From: a virus
Direction: 5' to 3' (one strand)
Virus record (IMG/VR): IMGVR_UViG_3300003690_003734
Location: 1 to 44,692 of that record
Length of the DNA stretch: 44,692 bases
Shown: in pieces, positions 2,996 through 24,766 of the stretch
Numbering within the stretch: position 1 is the first letter of the stretch
Layout of the letters: every line of letters starts with the position of its first letter
Translations under genes and position numbers: made by a program
The notes under the pieces: generated by a model
The model's input: the letters and a program-made list of their open reading frames with translations, nothing else
What the model was told of the DNA's origin: nothing
Database searches by the model: none

Positions 2996-3330
2996 GCTGC
3001 CTCCTGCCGTTTCTGGTAAAACTCTGCCGCTCGCCGCTCCAGTCGCTTTTGTTGCGCAAGGGCAACTCTTCGGATGTTGATGCCGTTGCGCTGTGCAATG
3101 CTCTTGAGTCGATACTTCGGCATCTCGTCACGCAGCGCGGCGTGGTATTCGTCACGCAGTCGTTTGATTTCGACGTTCTCCTCGTCGGTGAGGCTGGCCA
3201 GGGCGCGAATCTCCGACAGCCATACAGCGGTGGTGCTGACGCCGAAACGGTCGGCCAGAGTCTCCAGCGAGCGCTCACGCAGATACGCCCGCCAGTATTC
3301 GCGTTGATCAAGATCGGTATCGAGGCTCAT
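2992..3330 (-). CDS. Phage hypothetical protein with HTH-like segment
   Basis: The 112-aa product is basic and helical. Residues around LETLADRFGVSTTAVWLSEI read as a helix-turn-helix, and a second such element may lie at LKSIAQRNGINIRRVALAQ. I start it at ATG 3330, which overlaps the upstream stop (ATGA); a longer frame upstream is antisense-like and overlaps the neighbour. DNA binding is an inference; its target is unknown. It pairs with the next gene upstream, which has the same double-HTH character. Confidence 0.75.
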   Translation of the reverse strand: MSLDTDLDQREYWRAYLRERSLETLADRFGVSTTAVWLSEIRALASLTDEENVEIKRLRDEYHAALRDEMPKYRLKSIAQRNGINIRRVALAQQKRLERRAAEFYQKRQEAA

Positions 3331-4825: not shown

Positions 4826-5659
4826 TTAAAAAATGTTCAACTCAGCTTCAGGCTGGTCTTCATGGGTTTGGCTGGAGGGAGCCCATACCTCGGCAGGCTG
4901 CTCCAGAATTCGCTCGCGGTATTGCTCAACCATGCGGTCAAACTCGACAAGATCCGACTCCATTTCCTCGATATAGTCGTCGTCGCGCTCTACCCGGTGG
5001 ATAATCAGTTCCTTGTTAGCTGGGGCTAGGTCAGGGCAGTACAGGCAGAAGTGCCACCAGTTGCGCCCGGTCAACCACATGCAACCCTGCACCTGGTCCA
5101 TGAATTCGCTCAGGTCACCATCGAATAGGATTGAGCGAATGCGCTCCGGGGCTAGCAGGCACTTGTATTCACTGCCGCCGTCATCGTCGATTAGGCCGTC
5201 AGCGCTGGCGCCGAACTTGCCGTCCTCGGTGACCACGAAGCCGGCCCGCTCAATCAGCATCCCGATTCGGGACTCGTGCAGATCGCGAGCCTCTGGCTCA
5301 AGCTCGTTGCCTCTGCGCATTTGGTAGGTTGAGAAGCCCTCATCCAAAGGCTTCCCGCTGATTCGCTCGCAGGCCAATCGGAAGGCGTAATCCTTTGCGG
5401 CGTCGCTGTACTCACCAACCTTCTCGCCTTTAAGGGCTCTCGCTACGGTTTCCGAACTAGGCGCAGCTTTGTAGCCGGCTATCTGCTTCGCCTCTTTGGT
5501 TTCCTTGCCCGACAGGATTGCGTCCACATATTTTGCCTGCTGGTCGGTCAGGCCATTAACCAGTTTGCGAACAGTTGAGAACATGCTGGCCGTGATGACG
5601 CCACAGCGAGCCTGGTGCCACTCTGGCCCGCCCTGGGCGCACGTAATTACCCGGATCAT
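4826..5659 (-). CDS. YqaJ-type phage exonuclease (lambda Exo-like)
   Basis: The 277-aa product is a PD-(D/E)XK nuclease of the YqaJ/lambda exonuclease family, expected to resect double-stranded DNA ends 5' to 3' and leave 3' single strands for the annealing protein. Visible active-site elements are GNELEPEA (residues 117-124), the Asp in ASADGL (151-156) and the E-x-K pair in EYKC (164-167), with the later glutamine helix QVQGCMWLTG. The N-terminal PEWHQAR is the usual start of the fold. Its start overlaps the ERF gene by 4 nt, so nuclease and annealing protein are translationally coupled. Confidence 0.93.
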   Translation of the reverse strand: MIRVITCAQGGPEWHQARCGVITASMFSTVRKLVNGLTDQQAKYVDAILSGKETKEAKQIAGYKAAPSSETVARALKGEKVGEYSDAAKDYAFRLACERISGKPLDEGFSTYQMRRGNELEPEARDLHESRIGMLIERAGFVVTEDGKFGASADGLIDDDGGSEYKCLLAPERIRSILFDGDLSEFMDQVQGCMWLTGRNWWHFCLYCPDLAPANKELIIHRVERDDDYIEEMESDLVEFDRMVEQYRERILEQPAEVWAPSSQTHEDQPEAELNIF

Positions 5660-6441
5660 TTGCCACCTTCCTGCGCTGTCTGCAGCTTCTTGAGGTGATT
5701 GAATGCGGCGTCAAAGCGGGTTTTCTTGAGCTCCGGCACAGATTCAATGTGCGCCTTTTCGCAGATGTAAGCGGCATCCTTGCCTACCTGCTCCGCCATG
5801 TTCAGCAGCGTCCGGCATTGCGCTTGCGTGATCGTGTCGCTCTGTGGTGGCGCGGATTCAGGGGTTGCGCCTTCGCCATCGTCGTCCTGATCCTCAACAG
5901 CCATGCCAGTGGCGGCCAGCAGGGTATAGCGCTGCAGGTATGTGACCGTGGAGCCTACGGCCTGAATGCCGTTCTTGCCGCCTGAAGGGTCTGGCGGTGC
6001 CTGCAGTGCGGTGCTCTTTGAATGCCCAGCCTCATGGGTCAGGACGCACTCAACGCGGATGATGCCGGATTCCGTCTGGTTCGTATCCCAACTGTAGGAA
6101 ATGCCGTGCTCGCCCAGGGCGCTGCCAATTACGTCGCAGATGTGGTCCAGCGATGCATGGTCGTAATTGGTGCGCTTTCCGTTATGCGTGTAGTCCACCG
6201 TCTTGTTCTTGGTGATCTTTGGCGGATTGGCCTTGAAGGCATTCATGGCTCTGATGAACGCTTTCTTTGCCTCGCCAGCCTCCCAGCGCTCCTGTAGGTC
6301 CATCAGCTTTTCAAGCTGAACCATGTCGGCGCCACGCTCTACGGCCAGGGCCAGCATCTGGTTTGGCGTAACATTGGCCGACGGCAGGTGCGCCACGTTC
6401 TCGTCACGCTCGACAATTTGTTGCTTCTCTGCAGTGCTCAT
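5656..6441 (-). CDS. erf: ERF-family single-strand annealing protein
   Basis: The 261-aa product matches the ERF superfamily. The core contains KAFIRAMNAFKANPPKITKN, YDHASLDHICDVIGSALGEH and the family signature near AVGSTVTYLQRYTLLAATGM, followed by an acidic linker (EDQDDDGEG) and a helical C-terminal domain. ERF proteins form rings that anneal complementary single strands during phage circularisation and recombination. It works with the exonuclease encoded immediately downstream. Start at ATG 6441, overlapping the upstream stop (ATGA). Confidence 0.93.
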   Translation of the reverse strand: MSTAEKQQIVERDENVAHLPSANVTPNQMLALAVERGADMVQLEKLMDLQERWEAGEAKKAFIRAMNAFKANPPKITKNKTVDYTHNGKRTNYDHASLDHICDVIGSALGEHGISYSWDTNQTESGIIRVECVLTHEAGHSKSTALQAPPDPSGGKNGIQAVGSTVTYLQRYTLLAATGMAVEDQDDDGEGATPESAPPQSDTITQAQCRTLLNMAEQVGKDAAYICEKAHIESVPELKKTRFDAAFNHLKKLQTAQEGGK

Positions 6442-8650: not shown

Positions 8651-8986
8651 TTAAAAGCCCTTGCAGGCGCGTAGGATCATGGATTGGGCGGCGCGGGAGC
8701 GCGTGTTGTCGACGTGTTCGGTAATGCAGCGGTCAACTTCAGGCTGGCCTGGACGGACGGTGTCGGTTGGTGCAGGGTGTTGACGGCGGCACTCTCGGTA
8801 CTTGGCGTGCGCGACATGATCGGATCGGGTGCCCGGCATTTCCCTGAGGACACACTGACTAAGCGGTGATACTGGCTCTGTGGAGGCAGCAAAGAAAACG
8901 AACGCGTTTATCCCAACCACGACAATGGCAATAGCGACGAGCCAGGGCGGCCCGATGCGGGAGGCGATCAGCGAAGGACGGACCAC
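8651..8986 (-). CDS. Small membrane protein in rex position
   Basis: The 111-aa product starts at GTG 8986 and overlaps the end of the repressor gene by 19 nt. A single transmembrane helix lies at about residues 14-34 (PWLVAIAIVVVGINAFVFFA), followed by a soluble, Cys-containing domain (CVLREMPG, ECRRQHPA, DRCITEHVD, LRACKGF). It would be co-transcribed with the repressor from pRM in a lysogen, like lambda rexAB, so a superinfection-exclusion or other lysogenic role is plausible. That function is inferred only from position and topology. Confidence 0.7.
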   Translation of the reverse strand: MVRPSLIASRIGPPWLVAIAIVVVGINAFVFFAASTEPVSPLSQCVLREMPGTRSDHVAHAKYRECRRQHPAPTDTVRPGQPEVDRCITEHVDNTRSRAAQSMILRACKGF

Positions 8987-9732
8987 CAGAAAACCCGGCC
9001 AATGAGACGGATGTTCTCGGCAACATCTTCGGCATCGTAGTCTTCAGCCGGATACTCCGAGATGTTTTCTGAAATCACTCTGAGCCCACCACCTGGTCGC
9101 CGCTGAAGGTATTTCACGCGGAGCATGCCATCATGGTCAAAGGCGTAAATCTCGCCGTCACGGATTTCCTTGTCGCCGGTATCTACACCCACAGTAGTGC
9201 CGTCCGGAATCAGGCGCTCCATGCTGTTGCCTTTAACAGTCGCGCACGCGGCATTGGCGGGCTCAACACCAGCCCTGGATAGGGTGGATTTTGCGAATCG
9301 TAGTTTTGCGCCGTGGTTCTCGATAACTTCAGTCCTTCCACCTCCGGCAGCCATTTCGACCTCCCGGAACAACGGTAGTTCAACTTCGTCTGGGCCGAGT
9401 GGTGTATCGCTGTCCCAGGCGTCCATACGGCCAAAGAACTCCAGTTCGTTTTCCTGGACGCCCTGTACCTGATTTTTACTTTGGCTGACGTTTGGCATGT
9501 ACGCAACCTTTGCGTTGGCCGACGTGCGCTGCTGCGGACCTTCTCCGCTAACCAGCCATTCCAGGGATATATCCAGCGCCTTGGCGAGATCCGCAGCTTT
9601 GGATGATTGACGGCTGTCCCGTTTTTCAAGCGCGCCAATGGCTGCCTGCGTCATTCCGACCACGCGAGCCAACTTTTCTTGTGACCAGCCCGCAGCTTCG
9701 CGGGCCTGCTTTAATCGCTTCCCTAATGCCAT
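8968..9732 (-). CDS. cI: CI-like S24-family repressor
   Basis: The 254-aa product has an N-terminal XRE-type helix-turn-helix (residues 5-60; WSQEKLARVVGMTQAAIGAL) and a C-terminal LexA/CI-type peptidase. The autocleavage site is probably the Ala-Gly bond at 129-130 (MAAGGG), with nucleophile Ser170 in KGNSMERLIPDG and general base Lys207 in LRVKYLQR. It should repress pL and pR, and be inactivated by RecA-stimulated self-cleavage. Start ATG 9732; pRM is predicted just upstream. It faces away from cro in the usual divergent switch layout. Confidence 0.92.
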   Translation of the reverse strand: MALGKRLKQAREAAGWSQEKLARVVGMTQAAIGALEKRDSRQSSKAADLAKALDISLEWLVSGEGPQQRTSANAKVAYMPNVSQSKNQVQGVQENELEFFGRMDAWDSDTPLGPDEVELPLFREVEMAAGGGRTEVIENHGAKLRFAKSTLSRAGVEPANAACATVKGNSMERLIPDGTTVGVDTGDKEIRDGEIYAFDHDGMLRVKYLQRRPGGGLRVISENISEYPAEDYDAEDVAENIRLIGRVFWWSVLR

Positions 9733-9788: not shown

Positions 9789-9824
9789 CAACAGTAGTTG
9801 ACAACAAAAACAACTCATGTTGTT
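9766..9824. promoter_or_regulatory. OR: three repressor/Cro operator-like sites
   Basis: Sites following AACAAC-N4-GTTGTT lie at 9809-9824 (spacer TCAT, perfect), 9787-9802 (AACAAC-AGTA-GTTGAC) and more weakly at 9766-9781 (AACATT-TGTA-GTTTTT). Spacing of 21-22 bp puts all three on one face of the helix. The two stronger ones cover pR. Confidence 0.75.
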
Positions 9825-9826
9825 AT
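9798..9826 (+). promoter_or_regulatory. pR, rightward early promoter
   Basis: A perfect -35 TTGACA (9798-9803), 17-nt spacer and -10 TGTTAT (9821-9826). The predicted start is near 9832-9833, on top of the first ATG of the cro frame, which argues for the internal ATG at 9854 as the true cro start. Confidence 0.82.
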
Positions 9827-9853
9827 GTCGGCATGAACTATGTGGAGACCGTT

Positions 9854-10105
9854 ATGGCTAAAAGTGCTCTGGAAAGGGCCATTGAGATCAAGGGCGGGCA
9901 GACTCCCCTAGCCGCTGCCTGCGGAATTACGCAGCCATACGTCTGGAACTGGCTTAACCGGGACGGTCGGGTTCCTGCCGAATACGCCCTGAGCGTTTGT
10001 CGGGCCGTTGATTTTGGTGTTCGTCCTCATGATCTGCGTCCTGATATTTATCCGAATCCCAACGATTGCGTTCCCGATCAATACAGGTCGGCAAACGCAG
10101 CATGA
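9854..10105 (+). CDS. cro: Cro / YdaS-like repressor
   Basis: The 83-aa product (MAKSALERAIEIKGGQTPLA onward) is a single helix-turn-helix of the Cro/YdaS type: GGQTPLAAACGITQPYVWNW with recognition helix around residues 24-32 and the helix EYALSVCRAVDFGV behind it. It is the first gene on the pR transcript, divergent from cI. Start 9854 is preferred because GGAG at 9844-9847 has 6-nt spacing; the upstream ATG at 9833 coincides with the predicted transcription start. Confidence 0.88.
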   Translation: MAKSALERAIEIKGGQTPLAAACGITQPYVWNWLNRDGRVPAEYALSVCRAVDFGVRPHDLRPDIYPNPNDCVPDQYRSANAA

Positions 10106-10114
10106 TTTCATTTT

Positions 10115-10148
10115 CCCTATTTCAGGTGACCGAAATAATGGGTTTTTT
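10115..10148 (+). terminator. Terminator after cro (tR-like)
   Basis: CCCTATTTC (10115-10123) can pair with GAAATA (10132-10137) and GGG (10140-10142), followed by six T (10143-10148). The hairpin has an AT-rich stem closed by a GC base and a U tract. It would stop pR transcripts before the structured region unless antiterminated. Confidence 0.6.
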
Positions 10149-10169
10149 GGGGCTGAATAAATAAACAGT

Positions 10170-10745
10170 GTTTTGCCCTGGAAGCAGGGCGCATACGAAA
10201 GAGCGCGGGCGTGCAAAACCGTAACCGAGCAGCACATGTAAGCAGGGTGATAGCCCCTGACTCAGATCCCGGATGAGTGTGCGTACGCAGGTAGACCGCT
10301 CTTTTTCATATGCGAATGCCGCAGAGAGAGCCCGTCCGCTTCGGCGGAATCTGAACTGACCGCGTGAGCTGCGGCAGGAATGTAGGGCCATAGAACGTCG
10401 TGCGTCGAGCCACCGGCGCCACGGCTCCACCCTGGGGATGGTGCCCAGGGCACCCGGCACAAAAGTATCACCGCTGGCAGGTGGTTGACGTGTCCCCGGA
10501 CGAGGGTAACCGGGACGCATCGTGAGAGGGCTCCCATGCATACGCGGAGCATGTGCCGGGTTCGCCCGCGTGAGTCCTCTCAGATGCGGTGAATGCCCGG
10601 TGGTGACGGGCAGCAGAAGCAGATGGATAGCGGGCGAGGCTTCGGCCCTGAGTAGGTCTTTCGGGATAGTCGAAAGGGATTAGTTCGGAGATAGCCGTCT
10701 CCCATCAAGCCGGGATCACTTCCGGTCACCGCGTCTCATTTAAAC
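10170..10745 (+). ncRNA. Candidate large structured RNA, segment A
   Basis: About 575 nt with no credible gene but many exact helices. Examples: GCCCTG/CAGGGC (10175-10190); GCATA+GAAAGAGCG (10191-10205) with CGCTCTTTT+TATGC (10297-10313); TGCCGCAG/CTGCGGCA (10317-10324, 10369-10376); TCCGC-TTCG-GCGGA (10335-10348); CCCTGGG/CCCAGGG (10430-10450); GCATC+TGAGAGG (10517-10529) with CCTCTCA+GATGC (10576-10587); CGGG-TTCG-CCCG (10557-10568); TGCCCG/CGGGCA (10594-10612); CTTTCG/CGAAAG (10658-10676); GGAGA/TCTCC (10687-10702). UUCG tetraloops recur. Minus-strand frames here lack ribosome sites. The plus strand is assumed to be the RNA strand because it lies on the pR transcript. Family unknown; the GOLLD, ROOL and HEARO-type large RNAs are the classes to compare. 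Confidence 0.5.
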
Positions 10746-10758
10746 GGGAGGATTGGGT

Positions 10759-10938
10759 ATGACAACTAACGTAACGATTCAGGCGCACTGCTCCGACGAC
10801 AAAGAGGTCGTCGTTTCTATGCAAGACGGCAGCTACGGCGAAACTCACGTTCTTCAAAATGGCGAAGAACAGACGCTTTACGCCTTTGATGATCGTGTGA
10901 TCAGCGTGAAAGAGCGGGCGAAAGAAAGCACGGAATGA
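10759..10938 (+). CDS. Small conserved-looking phage protein between RNA segments
   Basis: The 59-aa product (MTTNVTIQAHCSDDKEVVVS onward) is beta-rich and acidic, with repeating strands (EVVVSMQDG, ETHVLQNGEEQTLYAFDD). A strong GGGAGG (10746-10751) sits 7 nt before ATG 10759. It is the only convincing gene in the 1.4-kb stretch between cro and the replication genes. I have the impression of similar short proteins in other gammaproteobacterial prophages but cannot name a family. No function assigned. Confidence 0.75.
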   Translation: MTTNVTIQAHCSDDKEVVVSMQDGSYGETHVLQNGEEQTLYAFDDRVISVKERAKESTE

Positions 10939-10940
10939 GA

Positions 10941-11535
10941 CAGGCGACTGACTGCCGTAAGCAGTCCGCATCTGGGAGCCCTCTGGTAAAGGCTGGCCAG
11001 CGCCCGGAAAGCCAAAGTACACGGCCTACGGGATGTGATTTGTGGTGCGTCGGTTCGATTCCGACAGATCACGCCAGAGGGTTCCGCAGATGCGAAGGGT
11101 TGGGAGATCCCGGCCGGCATCACAGCAACGATGGTTGCGAACTTGTAGAACGCCGTGAGGCGTCCAGATCTACCCGGCGGTCATGGGAGTGTCCTAAAGA
11201 GCTACCCCGCCGCTCCCACGGTGAGAAGTGGGTAGTAGACCGGTAAACCTTCGGGTCCGGTCGATGGCCGGGATGCAGTAGCTGAGTGTTCAGGGCCTTT
11301 TCCCTTTGAGCATTTAGAGCCCTGGGGGCATCGCCCCGCGAGGGCTTTAAGCGGTGACGGCATATGCCGATTTGACATGAGTCTGATTTCAACCGGATTG
11401 GGAGAGCAGCCATGTAACACCACCAGAGGTAACCGGCAGCCCGAATGCTGGCGCCAGAACCAGCGAACTGCATCGCGGTGAAGGCGCAATCACATAATGC
11501 AGAGCCCCTGGGTACCGACCGCGAGGGGCTTCAGA
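10941..11535 (+). ncRNA. Candidate large structured RNA, segment B with tRNA-like element
   Basis: About 600 nt without a credible gene. Helices include GACTGC/GCAGTC (10950-10966); a near-continuous 20-bp pairing of 10967-10986 with 11074-11094 (one bulged G at 11086); ATCCCGGCC/GGCCGGGAT (11107-11115, 11266-11274) closing a multibranch domain; GCAAC/GTTGC (11125-11138); GTAGA-ACGCC-GTGA-GGCGT-CCAGA-TCTAC (11145-11173, GNRA loop); GACCGG..ACC-TTCG-GGT-CCGGTC (11238-11262); CAGGGC/GCCCTG (11291-11324); GGGGC-ATC-GCCCC (11325-11337); AGCCCCT/AGGGGCT (11503-11530). The following gene has its own AGGAGG. It could be one RNA together with segment A, or separate. Confidence 0.5.
11035..11076 (+). 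ncRNA. tRNA-like acceptor/T-arm minihelix with encoded CCA
   Basis: GTGATTT (11035-11041) pairs over all 7 bp (one T-G wobble) with AGATCAC (11066-11072). Between them are a 7-nt linker and a perfect tRNA T arm: stem GTCGG/CCGAC (11049-11053, 11061-11065) with loop TTCGATT matching the tRNA consensus TTCRANY and the usual closing G-C. G (11073) stands in the discriminator position and CCA follows at 11074-11076. There is no room for D or anticodon arms, so it is not a translating tRNA. Such minihelices are known minimal RNase P substrates. Alternative: a captured tRNA 3' end. Confidence 0.65.
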
Positions 11536-11548
11536 TTCAGGAGGCTCT

Positions 11549-11908
11549 ATGTCAATTCTCAGGTTCGGATCCCCCGAATACTTCCAGGCTCTCGATCAGC
11601 AAGTCAACGCCATGCTGGCCCCGCAGTTGTCGGCTGGAATCCTAAAGCAAGGACAGGCTAACGAGATCCGCGCCAAGGCCCAGCGTCACGCGCACAGCCA
11701 GGTCGGCAATTTCTACGGCCGCAGTAAGTATGACGGCTCTGGCCGGCTGATGCGTGATATCCCAGCCGCGAAGGACCAGCACACCGGCCGCGTAGTTCTT
11801 CCTTTCCAGGTAGTCACGAACTCTCTAGATCAGGATGAACTGCTGCGGCAAAGGAAACAGCGGAAGGCTGGCAAGGTTCGTCGGAAGCGGATGAATAAGG
11901 CGGCTTAG
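11549..11908 (+). CDS. Phage hypothetical protein, first after RNA region
   Basis: The 119-aa product (MSILRFGSPEYFQALDQQVN onward) has a helical N terminus and a strongly basic tail (RQRKQRKAGKVRRKRMNKAA), suggesting nucleic-acid binding. ATG 11549 is preceded by AGGAGG at about 11539-11544. A hairpin terminator follows at 11919-11955. No family recognised; its place before the replication genes is the only clue to role. Confidence 0.75.
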   Translation: MSILRFGSPEYFQALDQQVNAMLAPQLSAGILKQGQANEIRAKAQRHAHSQVGNFYGRSKYDGSGRLMRDIPAAKDQHTGRVVLPFQVVTNSLDQDELLRQRKQRKAGKVRRKRMNKAA

Positions 11909-11918
11909 CGAGCAATAA

Positions 11919-11957
11919 AAAACCCGCATCAGAGGCTGGCAGGCCTAGCGGGTTTCT
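11919..11957. terminator. Terminator-like hairpin, possibly bidirectional
   Basis: AAACCCGC (11920-11927) pairs with GCGGGTTT (11948-11955) around a 20-nt loop, with an A-rich run before the 5' arm and only TTTC after the 3' arm. It is a better terminator for the opposite strand; for rightward transcription it is weak. Confidence 0.4.
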
Positions 11958-11981: not shown

Positions 11982-12179
11982 ATGAACGAGATCTCAAGCA
12001 AGGCCCACATCCTTCGCCTCAGACTGCTTGTCTGGCTACGCTGGCTCGCTGTTGAGCTCGAGCCGGCCGGCAGTGAGGACTTCCGGGCAATAGCAAGTGA
12101 GTACGCCCGCGCAAAAGGAGAGCTCAACAGGGCGCTCCTGAAAGAGCGTGAGCGCCGGATGAATAGGGGGGCGTTCTGA
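11982..12179 (+). CDS. Small basic phage protein
   Basis: The 65-aa product (MNEISSKAHILRLRLLVWLR onward) is helical and basic, with a Leu/Trp-rich N-terminal segment that is amphipathic rather than clearly transmembrane. Its stop overlaps the start of the replication gene by 1 nt, so it is co-translated with it. Function unknown. Confidence 0.65.
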   Translation: MNEISSKAHILRLRLLVWLRWLAVELEPAGSEDFRAIASEYARAKGELNRALLKERERRMNRGAF

Positions 12180-13042
12180 TGCCGAGATCCAGAAATATCA
12201 AGCCAGGGATAATCCAGAACGATGAACTGGCCTCCCTGGACCCATACGCACGGATCGCCTTTCCGCATCTGTGGATGCTTGCAGACTTCAAGGGGAACAT
12301 TGAGTACAAGCCAGCCAAGCTGAAAGTCCAGGCCCTTCCGTACGACGATATTGATATTGAGTTCATCCTGTCGGAACTGGAACGGGGCGGTTTCATCCAA
12401 AAGTATCATGAGAACGGTTCTCACTATTTGCACATCTGCAAGTTTGAGAAACACCAGAACCCGCACAAGAACGAAGTGCTCCGGGGAACCAATATTCCTA
12501 CTCCGGAGGAAGTTTCAGCCAGGGCAAAGCCCGAAGAAAAACCAGATGTAAAGCAGGAGCTTGACCAAGGAACGGATCAAGTCGAGACAGAAACGGAACA
12601 AGGACGACATGAGAACGGTTCTAATCCTGCTGATTCCTTGATTCCTGATTCCGGATCCCTGATCCCTGAAGAACAACAAGGCTCAACGTCTGGCGACGAT
12701 TCGCCAGCCAGTGTTGATCCGGATGTTGTTCGAGATTTCCCGCTTAAGGACGGAAGCGATTACATCGTCCCTGAAGATTTTGTGGACAAGCTCAAAGACA
12801 CCTACCGAAAGCTCGATGTTGAGCACCATCTCCGATGCGCAAGACTCTGGCTCGTGGCTGCCCCTTCCAGGCGGAAGACCAAGCGAGGGATGACCAAGTT
12901 CCTCAACGGATGGATGGGCAGGCAGAAGCCTACCGCAGAGATTCATCAGATCCAGAGGCAGAGCCGCCATACCGGCTTCGATGAACGCGACTACAGCGAA
13001 GGATTGATTGAGGGGGTGTCCGATGACGCAGCCAATTTCTGA
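12179..13042 (+). CDS. Phage replication initiator-like protein (O-like)
   Basis: The 287-aa product has the N-terminal fold MPRSRNIKPGIIQNDELASL..RIAFPHLWMLADFKG..FEKHQNPHKNE, a winged-helix type found at the start of many phage and plasmid replication proteins. A Glu/Lys/Gln-rich linker (about residues 115-180) and a basic C-terminal helical part follow. Its neighbour is a DnaC-like ATPase, so the pair corresponds to lambda O/P or helicase-loader systems: this protein would bind the origin and recruit the loader and the host helicase. The phage origin may lie inside this gene, as in lambda O, where the linker-coding part contains repeats of GATTCCTGATTCC type at about 12632-12665. Confidence 0.8.
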   Translation: MPRSRNIKPGIIQNDELASLDPYARIAFPHLWMLADFKGNIEYKPAKLKVQALPYDDIDIEFILSELERGGFIQKYHENGSHYLHICKFEKHQNPHKNEVLRGTNIPTPEEVSARAKPEEKPDVKQELDQGTDQVETETEQGRHENGSNPADSLIPDSGSLIPEEQQGSTSGDDSPASVDPDVVRDFPLKDGSDYIVPEDFVDKLKDTYRKLDVEHHLRCARLWLVAAPSRRKTKRGMTKFLNGWMGRQKPTAEIHQIQRQSRHTGFDERDYSEGLIEGVSDDAANF

Positions 13043-14167: not shown

Positions 14168-14355
14168 CCAATCAATGCACCGGCTGCCAACGCGGCCTCC
14201 CAATCTCAGAACTCGGAATGCACCACGACGAGTCTGGAATGTTCTTTTGCAGCAAGGCCCGCTATCGCATGGAGCTTGAGCCCATAAGCCGAGACACCTG
14301 GCATCAGCGGGAAAAGCGGGATGTGCCTTTTGTTTGTGGAGGGACCAATGAATGA
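14164..14355 (+). CDS. Small zinc-finger-like phage protein
   Basis: The 63-aa product starts CTGCQRG and has a later His/Cys pair (MHHDESGMFFCSK), a plausible single zinc site. It ends KRDVPFVCGGTNE; the coding of DVPFV is repeated in a second copy about 1 kb downstream, after the methyltransferase. The last 8 nt overlap the start of the methyltransferase gene. Confidence 0.7.
   Translation: MTNQCTGCQRGLPISELGMHHDESGMFFCSKARYRMELEPISRDTWHQREKRDVPFVCGGTNE
14319..14334 (+). repeat. 16-bp direct repeat, left copy
   Basis: GGATGTGCCTTTTGTT at 14319-14334 recurs exactly at 15331-15346. The two copies bracket the methyltransferase/overlap-ORF cassette and both encode DVPFV at the end of a small ORF. 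Confidence 0.85.
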
Positions 14356-15298
14356 GTTGGCTCTTTTCGCAGGCGCTGGTGGGGGAATGCTCGGCGGGCA
14401 CCTTCTCGGATGGCGAACCATCTGCGCAGTGGAACGTGATGCCTACGCCGCAGGGGTTCTGGCGCAACGACAAAATGATGGATGCCTCCCGCCTTTCCCA
14501 ATTTGGTCCGACGTTACGACTTTTGACGGAAAGCCATGGCGAGGCCGTGTTGATGTCATTTCTGGCGGCTTTCCCTGCCAGGACATATCCGCAGCCGGAC
14601 GAGGCGAAGGTATCAGCGGGGCAAGATCCGGACTTTGGTCTGAGTTCGCTCGAATCATTGGCGAAGTTCGACCCCGATACGTGTTCGTGGAGAACTCCCC
14701 AGTTCTCACTTCTCGGGGATTGGGACTTGTACTCGGAGACCTGGCCGCGCTGGGGTTTGATGCGCGATGGGGAGTGCTGGGTGCAGCCGATGTTGGCGCT
14801 CCGCACCAGCGGGACAGAATCTGGATTGTGGCCCACACCCAATGTGCCGAATGGCGGCAGGAGCCTGGCGCATGTAACGGAATGGAGCGAGAGCGGACGG
14901 ACTGCCTACCACAACGGCAAGAAGGTTCAGGTGGGCCTGGAGTCGGCGGTGAAGCTGTGGCCTACACCCCTGGCCAACAGTCACACGGGAGCAGGTCACG
15001 GCCCGAACAAGAAAGGCGGCATGAACCTGCAAACAGCAGTGAAGCGGTGGCCGACTCCAGTGGCGTCAATGCACAAGGGCAGCAGCCCTGCATCACTGAC
15101 GAGGAAATCTGGCAAGTCCCGGGAGAACGACCGGCTGGATCACGCATTAATGGCTTCGGATGGTGGCTCACTGAACCCTCAGTGGGTCGAGTGGTTAATG
15201 GGCTGGCCAATCGAGTGGACCGACTTAAAGCCCTTGGAAATGGCCAAGTTCCACGAGTGGCAGCAGCAGCATTCACCGAGCTTGCAGGAAGGGAGTGA
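14348..15298 (+). CDS. dcm-like: DNA C5-cytosine methyltransferase
   Basis: The 316-aa product has the ordered motifs of C5-MTases: motif I LALFAGAGGGMLGG (residues 4-17, SAM binding), motif IV GGFPCQDIS with catalytic Cys77, motif VI VENS (114-117), motif VIII QRDRIWIVA (154-162) and motif X ALGNGQVP near the C terminus. The target-recognition part between VIII and X is Gln/Gly/Ser-rich. It probably modifies phage DNA against host restriction. ATG 14348 is 9-13 nt after GGAGG (14338-14342). Another ORF starting 4 nt later runs across the whole gene in the +1 frame, which constrains its codon choice. Confidence 0.92.
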   Translation: MNELALFAGAGGGMLGGHLLGWRTICAVERDAYAAGVLAQRQNDGCLPPFPIWSDVTTFDGKPWRGRVDVISGGFPCQDISAAGRGEGISGARSGLWSEFARIIGEVRPRYVFVENSPVLTSRGLGLVLGDLAALGFDARWGVLGAADVGAPHQRDRIWIVAHTQCAEWRQEPGACNGMERERTDCLPQRQEGSGGPGVGGEAVAYTPGQQSHGSRSRPEQERRHEPANSSEAVADSSGVNAQGQQPCITDEEIWQVPGERPAGSRINGFGWWLTEPSVGRVVNGLANRVDRLKALGNGQVPRVAAAAFTELAGRE

Positions 15299-15308
15299 CG
15301 CCGCATGA
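14352..15308 (+). CDS. Long ORF fully overlapping the methyltransferase gene
   Basis: A 318-codon frame, +1 to the methyltransferase, starts at ATG 14352 and ends 10 nt after it. The product (MSWLFSQALVGECSAG onward) has a protein-like composition: GSLNPQWVEWLMGWPIEWTD near the C terminus, and three WPTP motifs (about 14829, 14959 and 15049). In the other frame the WPTP codons read as VAHT, VAYT and VADS, in the target-recognition region. I recall proteins with closely similar start and VEWLMGWP tail in many phage genomes, so I think this is a real double-coding pair, not a shadow. Function unknown; a role linked to the methyltransferase is a guess. Confidence 0.7.
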   Translation: MSWLFSQALVGECSAGTFSDGEPSAQWNVMPTPQGFWRNDKMMDASRLSQFGPTLRLLTESHGEAVLMSFLAAFPARTYPQPDEAKVSAGQDPDFGLSSLESLAKFDPDTCSWRTPQFSLLGDWDLYSETWPRWGLMRDGECWVQPMLALRTSGTESGLWPTPNVPNGGRSLAHVTEWSESGRTAYHNGKKVQVGLESAVKLWPTPLANSHTGAGHGPNKKGGMNLQTAVKRWPTPVASMHKGSSPASLTRKSGKSRENDRLDHALMASDGGSLNPQWVEWLMGWPIEWTDLKPLEMAKFHEWQQQHSPSLQEGSDAA

Positions 15309-21449: not shown

Positions 21450-22577
21450 ATGGCAACTAACGACTCTCCCCTGTCTGTTGCAGCAGCGAGGGCTCTTGTA
21501 TTGTCCCTGGATGGCGGCGGAGGCGGCAGCTCGGGTGGCACGAGCGCCCTTGCCTGGTCGGCATCAAGCGGCCTGGGTGATCAGAACGAGATCGTTTTAA
21601 CGACTGACACTTATACATTTTCCGCCCCGTCAAAGTCGGCCTGGCTTGGGTTTGGCGAAGGATGGTTGTATGGCCAAGCTGATGATACGCCAATGGCCCA
21701 ATCTGTCAGTGTTAATGGCGAGACGATCACTTATGAATTTGGTGTCGGCAGTGAGAATCGATTTGTCAAAACGGTTGACGGGGTCAAGGTCCTCGAATCA
21801 ACCCTGATCCCATCACTTGGAACGGGCTACAACGCCGGGTTTATCAACTGGGATAATGGCGCGGCTATCCCCGCTGGAGACGCCATCTTTATGTTTGCGC
21901 GAGTCAGATGCACTGACGGATCGGTTAACAATGCATCTTTCCAGTGGAAACAAGAGCGCATCCGGGCGTACATCAACCTCAGCGGAGCTGGTCACAACTC
22001 AGCCTATATTGCCGAGACAACCCCGGCGGGCTCTGGATCTCGGATTGTGGAGTACGAGGGTAATGATGGGGCTGCGGCATCTCTATATACCAGCGTACCC
22101 AAACACGGCGATGGTTGGTTTAACCACGGGTGGCTCTGGAAGATCAACACCCCGGATCAGTCAGATGGCCTTATGGTTAAGGTCACCCAGAAGGAAGGAG
22201 ACGCCGGCATTGTCATGGACTCTACCATGACAAATTCGGGTGGTGATGTTGGAACCGACACCGTCCGCAGCTCTGAGTCGGAGCGCCCTCGGTTTGCATC
22301 CATTCAGGATTACATTGGAAACAATGGCGACAACACCACAAATATTCTGCTTCAGAGAACCGACCAATACTGGCAACTCAACGGAACGCACTTCTTTTTG
22401 TCCGACAACTCTAACCCTGCCTCTGCTGGCCTGTTCTGGCCATTAAGAGTGGTTTCTGTGAGCGGGACCCAAACAGCAACGCTGAAGCTCTGGAAAGGCA
22501 CGTTCGCCGATTATTCAGGAAAGGCAATCCTGGTGTATGACGAAGATATGAGCTTTATTGCGGGGGTCGATCTCTAA
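21450..22577 (+). CDS. Phage surface/lectin-like structural protein candidate
   Basis: The 375-aa product has a short helical N terminus, a Gly/Ser linker (DGGGGGSSGGTS, about residues 24-35) and then a large beta-rich domain with many aromatic and Asn residues (WLGFGEGWLYGQADDTPMAQ, YIAETTPAGSGSR, LQRTDQYWQLNG), the composition of a lectin-like or glycan-binding fold. No family recognised. It lies in the late strand between the lysis genes and the packaging site, where lambda has no tail genes, and its stop overlaps the next start by 1 nt. A virion or secreted adhesin role is an inference. Confidence 0.65.
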   Translation: MATNDSPLSVAAARALVLSLDGGGGGSSGGTSALAWSASSGLGDQNEIVLTTDTYTFSAPSKSAWLGFGEGWLYGQADDTPMAQSVSVNGETITYEFGVGSENRFVKTVDGVKVLESTLIPSLGTGYNAGFINWDNGAAIPAGDAIFMFARVRCTDGSVNNASFQWKQERIRAYINLSGAGHNSAYIAETTPAGSGSRIVEYEGNDGAAASLYTSVPKHGDGWFNHGWLWKINTPDQSDGLMVKVTQKEGDAGIVMDSTMTNSGGDVGTDTVRSSESERPRFASIQDYIGNNGDNTTNILLQRTDQYWQLNGTHFFLSDNSNPASAGLFWPLRVVSVSGTQTATLKLWKGTFADYSGKAILVYDEDMSFIAGVDL

Positions 22578-24766
22578 TGGCATCGATTCTTGGCAAGCTC
22601 GCAATACAGGAGGGCGATTCCTACACAGCCGTCGCCGGAAGCAATAGGGCGGTTGTTGTTGCCGGCACGGGTGAATCCGCATTCTCAAGCCGTGAAATTG
22701 TCGGCATAACCTTTGGTGGTGTTGCAATGACTCGGGCAGCCTATACGGGCGACACCGAGACGGCCAAAGGCGGGGTTTACTACATACTGGAGTCGCAAAT
22801 ACCCGCAGGCTCAAGTGTTATAGCGGTTGATTGGGACGGGCAGGTCCACGATGCATTTACCGGGGCTGTCTACACTCTTGGCGGAATTGATCAGGCTACT
22901 CCCGTCAATAACTTCAATTCCGCTGTTGGCGTGAGCCTGTTCGACCTCGATATAACGTTTAACGGCGTTGATGGTGGTGTTCTAGTTGCTGGCGCAGGCT
23001 CCAACTCGCCGGCTGATACGCTGAACCAGTCGTCCACTATATCTGCCACAACAACGACAGTAACGGTTGACCACGCGCAAACTACAGCAGGGCATGAAGG
23101 CTCGGCGATTTCTGGCGTGTTGAGCGCGGCAGGATCGGAGACGCTTGGGCTGAGATATTCCAGCGAGACGGACCCCGTTGGCGCACTGGCCGTTTTCAAT
23201 CCTGCTGCATCAGGGCCATCTGTTAGTGCCGCAGACGATATCACCAGCGAAGGCGATACGGCTGAATTCACCCTTGCGAATAACAGCGCAGCCCCGGTAA
23301 GCGCCACACTAAATGGTACAGACGTTGGCACCCTGACGCTGGTCAGCGGGTCAACCTACAGCTACACCGCCCCGCTGATTGCTGACGACGACACTGCGGA
23401 CCTGGTCGTTACTGTTGACAGCACGACCGCCAGCACGGTCATTGGCTACGCCAACAGCTACCCCTATGAGCTGGTCACGCACGGTGAGCCTGACGCGAAC
23501 TCAGCATTTTTCGATACTGCATTCGCCACGAATGGCCCGGTAGAGTGGGGCGTTGTAACTGACTTTGATTCCGGCGTGGTTGTCGTCGATTGGGCCACCA
23601 TGGACGCGGCGGAAGACGAACTCAACGACATTGCACTCCACAGCACCGAGGTTGCTGCCGGAGATTCCACAGCAACCCTGAAGTATTTTGTGCCAGAGTC
23701 GGGCGCCACCGGAACGTTTCAGGCGACGGCGACCGTTGATGGCACGGACGATACCGCCCCCACCATCTCAAGCGCCTCTGTACCCACGGCGGGCAATAAC
23801 ATTGCCGTACAGATGTCCGAATCCATGCAGGTTGGCGCAGGCGGATCTGGCGGCTGGACAATCAGCCTTGCAGGCGTCTCCGTTAGCTCTGCATCGGTAG
23901 ATGGCTCAGACGACACGATTATCAACCTGACGCCATCGCGCACACTGACCGACGAAGACACGCTGGCCATTGGCTACACGCAGCCCGGAGACGGCTTCCA
24001 GGATCAGGCGGCCACACCAAACGATCTGGCAACGCTCAGCGGGCAGGCGGTAACGAACAACAGCACCCAGCAGCCGCCCGATGTGACGGGGCCGGTTACC
24101 CAAAGCGTGGGGGTGCCAACTGCTGGCACTTACGCCATTGGCGATGACCTGAGCTTTACCGTCAACTGGGACGAAGCCGTTACGGTCACCGGCACTCCGG
24201 CGCTGAATCTTGATATCGGCGGAACGTCTCGCCAGGCCGACTACGTATCCGGTAGCGGCTCAAGCGCCCTGGTGTTCACCTACACAGTGCAGGCAGGTGA
24301 CGAAGACGATAACGGCATTGCCGTATCCAGCCTCACACTGGAAGACGGAACGCTACAGGATGCCTCAAGCAACAACGCCACACTGACGCTGAACAGCGTT
24401 GGCGATACCTCCGGCGTTCTTGTGGATGGCCTGGCGCCTGTTATCTCAATCAATAGCCTGACCACCACAGACACCACTCCGGTGGTTACTGGCAGCTCAG
24501 GGGATGCCACAAGCCTCACCCTGGTCGTCAATAGCGTTACCTACAACCCAACCCCCTCCGGCGGTACATGGAGCCAGCAGCTTCCAGAACTGGCGCTCGA
24601 TACCTACCCCATGACCCTGAACGGGCAGGATGCGGCGGGGAATGATGCGGTTGAGGCTCAGGCGGTGTTGACCGTTGTTGATGAGATCGTGGCTACTGGG
24701 AATGGTTTGTTCAGGCCGCTGTTCCGGGCGAACAAGAAATCTACTTTCAAAAATCTATTTAGGTGA
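22577..24766 (+). CDS. Large protein with Ig-like repeats, adhesin or virion decoration candidate
   Basis: The 729-aa product has an N-terminal beta domain (about residues 1-210), then Ig-like modules: one with SVSAADDITSEGDTAEFTLA, one with DDTAPTISSASVPTAGNN (cohesin/SwmB-like repeat), one with TQSVGVPTAGTYAIGDDLSF, and a final Big-type domain (VISINSLTTTDTTPVVTGSS). It is acidic, rich in Thr, Ser, Asp and Gly and has no signal peptide, so it is more likely a virion component than a secreted host protein. Its distal end FRPLFRANKKSTFKNLFR is short and basic. Receptor or surface binding is likely but unproven. Confidence 0.7.
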   Translation: MASILGKLAIQEGDSYTAVAGSNRAVVVAGTGESAFSSREIVGITFGGVAMTRAAYTGDTETAKGGVYYILESQIPAGSSVIAVDWDGQVHDAFTGAVYTLGGIDQATPVNNFNSAVGVSLFDLDITFNGVDGGVLVAGAGSNSPADTLNQSSTISATTTTVTVDHAQTTAGHEGSAISGVLSAAGSETLGLRYSSETDPVGALAVFNPAASGPSVSAADDITSEGDTAEFTLANNSAAPVSATLNGTDVGTLTLVSGSTYSYTAPLIADDDTADLVVTVDSTTASTVIGYANSYPYELVTHGEPDANSAFFDTAFATNGPVEWGVVTDFDSGVVVVDWATMDAAEDELNDIALHSTEVAAGDSTATLKYFVPESGATGTFQATATVDGTDDTAPTISSASVPTAGNNIAVQMSESMQVGAGGSGGWTISLAGVSVSSASVDGSDDTIINLTPSRTLTDEDTLAIGYTQPGDGFQDQAATPNDLATLSGQAVTNNSTQQPPDVTGPVTQSVGVPTAGTYAIGDDLSFTVNWDEAVTVTGTPALNLDIGGTSRQADYVSGSGSSALVFTYTVQAGDEDDNGIAVSSLTLEDGTLQDASSNNATLTLNSVGDTSGVLVDGLAPVISINSLTTTDTTPVVTGSSGDATSLTLVVNSVTYNPTPSGGTWSQQLPELALDTYPMTLNGQDAAGNDAVEAQAVLTVVDEIVATGNGLFRPLFRANKKSTFKNLFR

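Follow-up and report, generated by a model that had tools for sequence, protein, structure and literature searches.

What does a lambdoid phage keep in a stretch of 1.4 kb that, in the original prediction, was dense in helices, nearly free of genes and possibly one large RNA? The window, a viral record 44,692 bases long, holds this stretch at positions 10106-11548, the interval between a cro-type gene and the replication genes, and the share of about 3 percent first given for it is correct. Part of the large-RNA idea stands, as the locus is structured, non-coding and under selection. The rest does not: the locus is a modular array of three cassettes (C1, C2 and C3) plus a 3' hairpin, with a real gene inside, and not one giant RNA of 1.4 kb.

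The gene order of the window is lambdoid, with integrase (43460), recombination genes (4826-6441), CI-type repressor (8968-9732, minus strand), cro, replication genes (starting at 12179) and genes for terminase, portal and tail. Identity of the terminase to those of Gifsy-2 and related siphophages is about 50%. The gene adjoining the RNA locus upstream (9833-10105, plus strand) encodes a YdaS/Cro-type regulator (Pfam YdaS_toxin, 2.7e-19; phrog_35, transcriptional repressor, 1.1e-26). A probable pR promoter, TTGACA-17-TGTTAT, lies 5' of it at 9798-9826 on the plus strand, consistent with the transcription from pR proposed earlier; a stricter promoter-consensus scan does not list this site. Downstream follow a 119-aa protein gene (11549-11908, plus strand), which had no PHROG match and no relatives when its protein was used as a query in viral contigs, and, before the replication genes, a putative terminator hairpin 3' of an A run (11921-11954, plus strand). 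Relatives of the locus (given here by L numbers) carry similar terminator-like hairpins at the equivalent place. Elsewhere in the window, a 729-aa protein (22577-24763) matches phrog_30287 across nearly its whole length, and a DNA methyltransferase gene shares its strand, but not its reading frame, with a second long ORF (14321-15298 and 14352-15308).

Comparison with relatives bore out the two gene-free blocks. Substitutions were spread evenly over the three codon positions (3/3/3 in 10589-10757, 5/5/2 in 10941-11116 and 16/19/16 in 11311-11548) and 1-nt indels occurred, for which reasons we rejected a protein-coding reading of either. The single 59-aa ORF between them (10759-10938, plus strand), noted from the start, gave 1/0/12: of its 13 differences from L090, 12 fall in third positions and one amino acid changes. 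The 119-aa ORF gave 26/22/66 against L091. Because of this third-position bias we take both ORFs as real genes, the former lying inside the array. A further conserved non-coding block, D2 (11317-11531, plus strand), precedes the 119-aa gene and has homologues in L091, L094, L095, L102 and L112 with a non-coding substitution pattern; a conserved start-stop minigene (AUG-UAA) within D2 was considered and dropped, as L102 has a longer ORF there.

The density of helices held for one block more than for the other. The second, 10940-11548, folds much better than its shuffles (z -5.3), and a 150-nt window at 10950 reached z -6.6, whereas the rest of the record averages -0.3 (sd 1.1). The first, 10160-10760, is only modestly better than shuffles as a whole (z -2.3), with most of its 150-nt windows within chance. 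Cut at their correct borders, the cassettes gave z -2.8 (C1), -3.1 (C2) and -5.9 (C3). Given the modest value of the first block, counts of exact helices are insufficient for it, and conservation in relatives carries the case; folding energy, strong in one block and modest in the other, is therefore not our main argument.

Aligned by eye and by script, the loci share a unit plan, in which a P1 hairpin of 5-6 bp is followed directly 3' by a P2 stem that encloses 58-148 nt. The 5' end of P2 reads GCAUC (or GUAUC, GCAUA) and its 3' end GAUGC (or UAUGC). In the window, with all parts on the plus strand, the array opens with hairpin P1a (10175-10190, GCCCUG-GAAG-CAGGGC), conserved or compensated in relatives, and cassette C1 (10191-10313), whose P2 stem GCAUA...UAUGC (-21.5 kcal/mol with its own partner) shows a C-G to A-U change relative to GCAUC/GAUGC. 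A structured spacer (10314-10491), found only in the near-identical L088 and L093, separates C1 from hairpin P1b (10492-10516, GUCCCCGG...CCGGGAC) and the P2-closed cassette C2 (10517-10587; model R2). After the 59-aa gene come hairpin P1c (10950-10966, GACUGC-CGUAA-GCAGUC) and cassette C3 (10968-11093), which has a P2 stem of 20 pairs (-38.8 kcal/mol) and is shared by L089 and L091. At its 3' end the array is marked by the conserved P3 hairpin (11125-11138, GCAAC-GAUG-GUUGC), which reads GCAAU-GACA-AUUGC or CAGC...GCUG in relatives and is common to the loci while cassette contents differ.

This scaffold is supported by covariation among relatives, the kind of check proposed with the original prediction, and pairing proved to be kept by compensatory change. 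The P1 sequences are unrelated and yet all pair (GCCCUG/CAGGGC, GACUGC/GCAGUC, GGCUCC/GGAGCC, GUCCC/GGGAC, GCCGG/CCGGC, GACUC/GAGUC and GCCUG/CAGGC), with 48 of 50 cells paired over 10 distinct sequences, a result reached by none of 1000 shuffles. In P2, conservation of the first five pairs is too high for a covariation test. Across 15 cassettes, P2 strands paired at -30.3 kcal/mol with their own partner versus -16.5 with strands of other cassettes, and with the shared ends removed the inner parts still gave -18.3 versus -8.7 (0 of 20000 permutations). For C2, 98.9% of cells were paired in an alignment of 8 sequences (7 distinct) with four doubly changed pairs, and none of 500 shuffles reached either the percentage paired or the covariation score; an invariant G-U pair would be a C-A mismatch if read from the opposite strand. 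Judged from these alignments, the scaffold is kept by compensatory change, and it is RNA structure of the plus strand that is under selection.

Further downstream lies a GCAUC or GCGUC with which the GAUGC strand of P2 could pair instead. This second pairing, P2', joins GAUGCGGUGA (10583-10592) to UCACCGCGUC (10726-10735) around a domain of about 130 nt (10583-10735), and at C3 it can join 11089-11093 to the GCAUC at 11117-11121. P2 and P2' compete. The covariation of P2' is weak (62 of 77 cells paired; 58 of 1000 shuffles), and the two could conceivably work as a switch, a possibility raised by the complementarity itself. The domain closed by the first P2' is 94.6% conserved in L096, where the changes keep a hairpin (GCCCG/CGGGC becomes GUCCA/UGGGC). 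The UUCG loops pointed out earlier do exist, although L096 has UCAG in place of the one near 10640-10650, and this tetraloop sequence is thus not conserved.

Some of the cassette contents resemble tRNA. Within C3, a minihelix (11035-11076, plus strand) reads GUGAUUU-(7 nt)-GUCGG-UUCGAUU-CCGAC-AGAUCAC-G-CCA, with perfect pairing in both acceptor and T-arm. It and its counterparts in L089 and L091 have the 7-bp acceptor, the 7-nt link in the window, the 5-bp T-arm, a TTCRANY loop, the discriminator and CCA; these two relatives have GGCGG/CCGCC for GUCGG/CCGAC in the T-arm and AAAUCAC for AGAUCAC in the acceptor strand, with pairing kept. A strict T-arm search found 8 matches on the plus strand in 12 kb of these loci, some of them in near-identical loci such as L093, versus 4 in 495 kb elsewhere. 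Among relatives, one cassette each of L094 (36.6 bits, E 3.6e-6) and L125 (29.7 bits) scores above the gathering score of 29 with the tRNA model of Rfam. Both have D-arm, T-arm and acceptor, the acceptor being continuous with P2, and carry about 50 nt inserted 3' of the anticodon arm. This arm is missing from C3 and is shortened in L094 (CCUG-CAGGA-CAGG, not a 7-nt loop), and ARAGORN and Rfam at the gathering score list no tRNA in the window. The predicted fold of C3 ties up the CCA in P2, and only the opening of P2 would free it. C1 and the cassettes of L102 type and of L112 do not look like tRNA. By these sequence features, several cassettes, not all, are tRNA-derived. The tRNA link drawn in the original prediction thus survives as folds inside cassettes and not as tRNA genes beside a giant RNA. 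Two observations lie outside the cassettes: L145 carries a tRNA-Met directly 3' of P3 and the array (3180-3256, minus strand), and L089 a tRNA-Trp-like sequence (11540-11612, oriented) with CCA at the anticodon position and no normal D-arm.

A different element, D1, is absent from the window. This H-type pseudoknot of 28 nt (GNC-CU-GGGCCA-U-GNC-7 nt A-rich-UGGCCC) is located 3' of P3 in L088, L089, L094, L095, L112, L125, L126, L133 and L135, was also found in the unrelated phage settings of L128/L138, L132 and L136, and often lies directly upstream of a ribosome-binding site. Its stem 1 is GUC/GAC, GCC/GGC or GAC/GUC, stem 2 covaries too, and 99.3% of cells are paired, with 0 of 500 shuffles reaching the covariation score. 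D1 may be a regulatory RNA motif in its own right. We also considered a short peptide conserved across P3 and D1 and rejected it, as a 1-nt indel and in-frame stops interrupt its frame in several members, whereas the pairing is kept.

Membership in GOLLD, ROOL or HEARO, as first supposed, was not upheld, since their Rfam covariance models match neither the window nor 15 relatives. In the window no Rfam family reached its gathering score, and at E values up to 10 the region 10080-11600 gave two unrelated sub-threshold matches, neither of them GOLLD. HEARO is associated with an HNH ORF; here such ORFs were seen in L096 and L141 alone, each at a cassette border. GOLLD is a phage and prophage RNA with a conserved 3' part, a variable 5' part and sometimes a tRNA inside its linker (PMC12286853). 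The array resembles it in being phage-borne with a conserved 3' part, variable 5' part and tRNA inside, which we regard as resemblance and not homology; it differs in its P2-closed cassettes, in members of down to about 200 nt and in tRNA-like folds without a usable anticodon. ROOL, also a large structured phage RNA near tRNA (PMC12286853), shares these traits with the array but differs in architecture. With tRNA (RF00005) and the tRNA-like domain of tmRNA the array shares the acceptor/T-arm minihelix with GCCA; it is unlike tRNA in that the anticodon arm is missing (C3) or the loop at the anticodon position is shortened and followed by the insert of about 50 nt, and in an acceptor often fused to P2. 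A CsrA/RsmA sponge was also rejected, as the motifs are not enriched (GGA 158 versus 174.7 expected; ANGGA 25 versus 40.2). A literature search, not exhaustive, found no paper describing the array family. Taken from sequence comparison, the locus very probably represents a previously unlisted modular family of structured phage RNA.

Within the Marinobacter group, relatives were found at about 20 loci of phages or prophages, mostly 3' of a cro-type gene; in nearly all members the position is equivalent, with a cro- or cII-type gene on the 5' side. Loci were collected with the 3' sequence of L088 and pattern scans (L088-L096, L101, L102, L125, L126, L133, L135 and L140-L145), to which a plasmid of Marinobacter sp. 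M3C (L095) and five loci from genomes that all belong to a single genus (L109, L112, L147, L149 and L167) were added. Since L095 and G482 score alike (73.2 bits), we infer that this genus is Marinobacter. Model R1 matched strongly in 5 of its 124 genomes and, at E values up to 1e-6, in no other genus of 163 family genomes and in none of 369 class genomes, the match of L150, in a coding region, being taken as chance. Weak R1 matches (such as L150, L152, L153 and L158) and chance pattern matches (L097-L100, L108, L114-L116, L119-L124 and most coding D1 matches) were excluded. GenBank phage records contained no direct DNA relatives of the locus, and the M3C element was the sole one in a plasmid search.

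Arrays range from about 0.2 to 1.4 kb, the minimal member, L133, being about 200 nt long with a single cassette of 71 nt. The isolate-derived contig L002/L088 is 99.6% identical over 10106-10589, continues with a different, shorter sequence and rejoins the window for 32 nt at 11117. Where two loci diverge after a shared cassette, most of the comparisons place the breakpoint at GCATC or GATGCGG, or a few bases away. As breaks coincide with the GCATC/GATGC borders, cassette contents are exchanged as units. In L096 (about 12490-13037) and L141 (upstream of 2790), both numbered in element orientation, cassette borders carry HNH endonuclease ORFs that are related and alike at their C-terminal ends, which suggests homing at the GCATC junction. 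The small genes after the array differ in L101, L102, L109, L112, L142 and L143, and several encode a signal-peptide-like start and a common LPESPGGVIAK-type segment; this region looks like an accessory hot spot.

The explanation that we favor, with a probability of roughly 0.42, is a new modular RNA family of lambdoid temperate phages of the Marinobacter group, whose cassettes would be excised and act in trans. The array would be transcribed from pR behind cro within the early transcript. Long duplexes that close a structured RNA and serve as RNase III sites are known from rRNA precursors; the P2 duplexes, which close their cargo in the same way, would be processing stems of this kind, and RNase III would release small stable phage RNAs. 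RNase P may act at the acceptor/T-arm minihelix of the window. In L094 and L125 the acceptor runs into P2, and RNase P should therefore be hindered there, which speaks against the mechanism, as do the CCA of C3 bound up in P2 and the cassettes that do not look like tRNA. We hold this course of events, from pR transcription through P2 excision to stable RNAs, only tentatively and at somewhat less than even odds. The tRNA-like RNAs would act early in infection on recognisers of the tRNA elbow or acceptor end, such as enzymes of RNA processing or a host defence that targets tRNA, the choice of target being conjecture. A broader version, in which phages swap hairpin-bounded, often tRNA-shaped units at fixed GCATC/GATGC borders of the early operon as a transferable system and the excised mimics serve in trans as early counter-defence or takeover RNAs, seems on the doubtful side.

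The main rival, likewise on the doubtful side, is a cis-acting leader of the early operon, serving RNA-based antitermination, transcript insulation or translational control of the replication genes, with the cassettes as tolerated filler. The constant place between cro and the terminator-like hairpin would fit it, as would D1 after P3 in many relatives, often just 5' of ribosome-binding sites; D1 is missing from the window, and lengths of about 0.2-1.4 kb together with wholesale exchange of contents are unexpected for a compact cis signal. The put RNA of HK022 has an early-operon position, acts in RNA-based antitermination and is present in both early operons. The array shares this position but is much larger and modular, and R1 has a single match in the window, with no second copy toward the left operon as put would need.

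Exchange at exact borders and the border HNH ORFs would also suit a selfish or neutral island, in which cassettes and homing endonucleases move and persist as the stems fold away. A neutral spacer would lose the compensatory changes seen in P1, P2 and the T-arm, which indicate selection on structure, and we consider such an island unlikely. A functional counterpart of GOLLD or ROOL, that is, a large RNA forming multimers or cages, is less likely still: the general layout recalls GOLLD (PMC12286853), but no Rfam model matches, and the single cassette of L133 is small for a cage. A decayed tRNA cluster without function, to which the tRNA-Met of L145 and the tRNA-like remnants in several loci might point, is highly improbable, as decay would not keep pairing via double changes nor a scaffold shared across loci with different contents.

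As we read it, the array consists of small, exchangeable parts, each of which can be tested by itself. To our knowledge, few families of large phage RNA are known, and GOLLD and ROOL are both without a settled function. The 71-nt cassette of L133 could stand in for a giant RNA, and the natural cassette swaps are ready-made variants. Should the tRNA-like cassettes indeed act in trans, phages would be using tRNA-shaped RNA without decoding, which would bear on why structured phage RNAs and tRNAs co-occur. A transferable cassette system, if real, would be the RNA counterpart of variable accessory gene loci.
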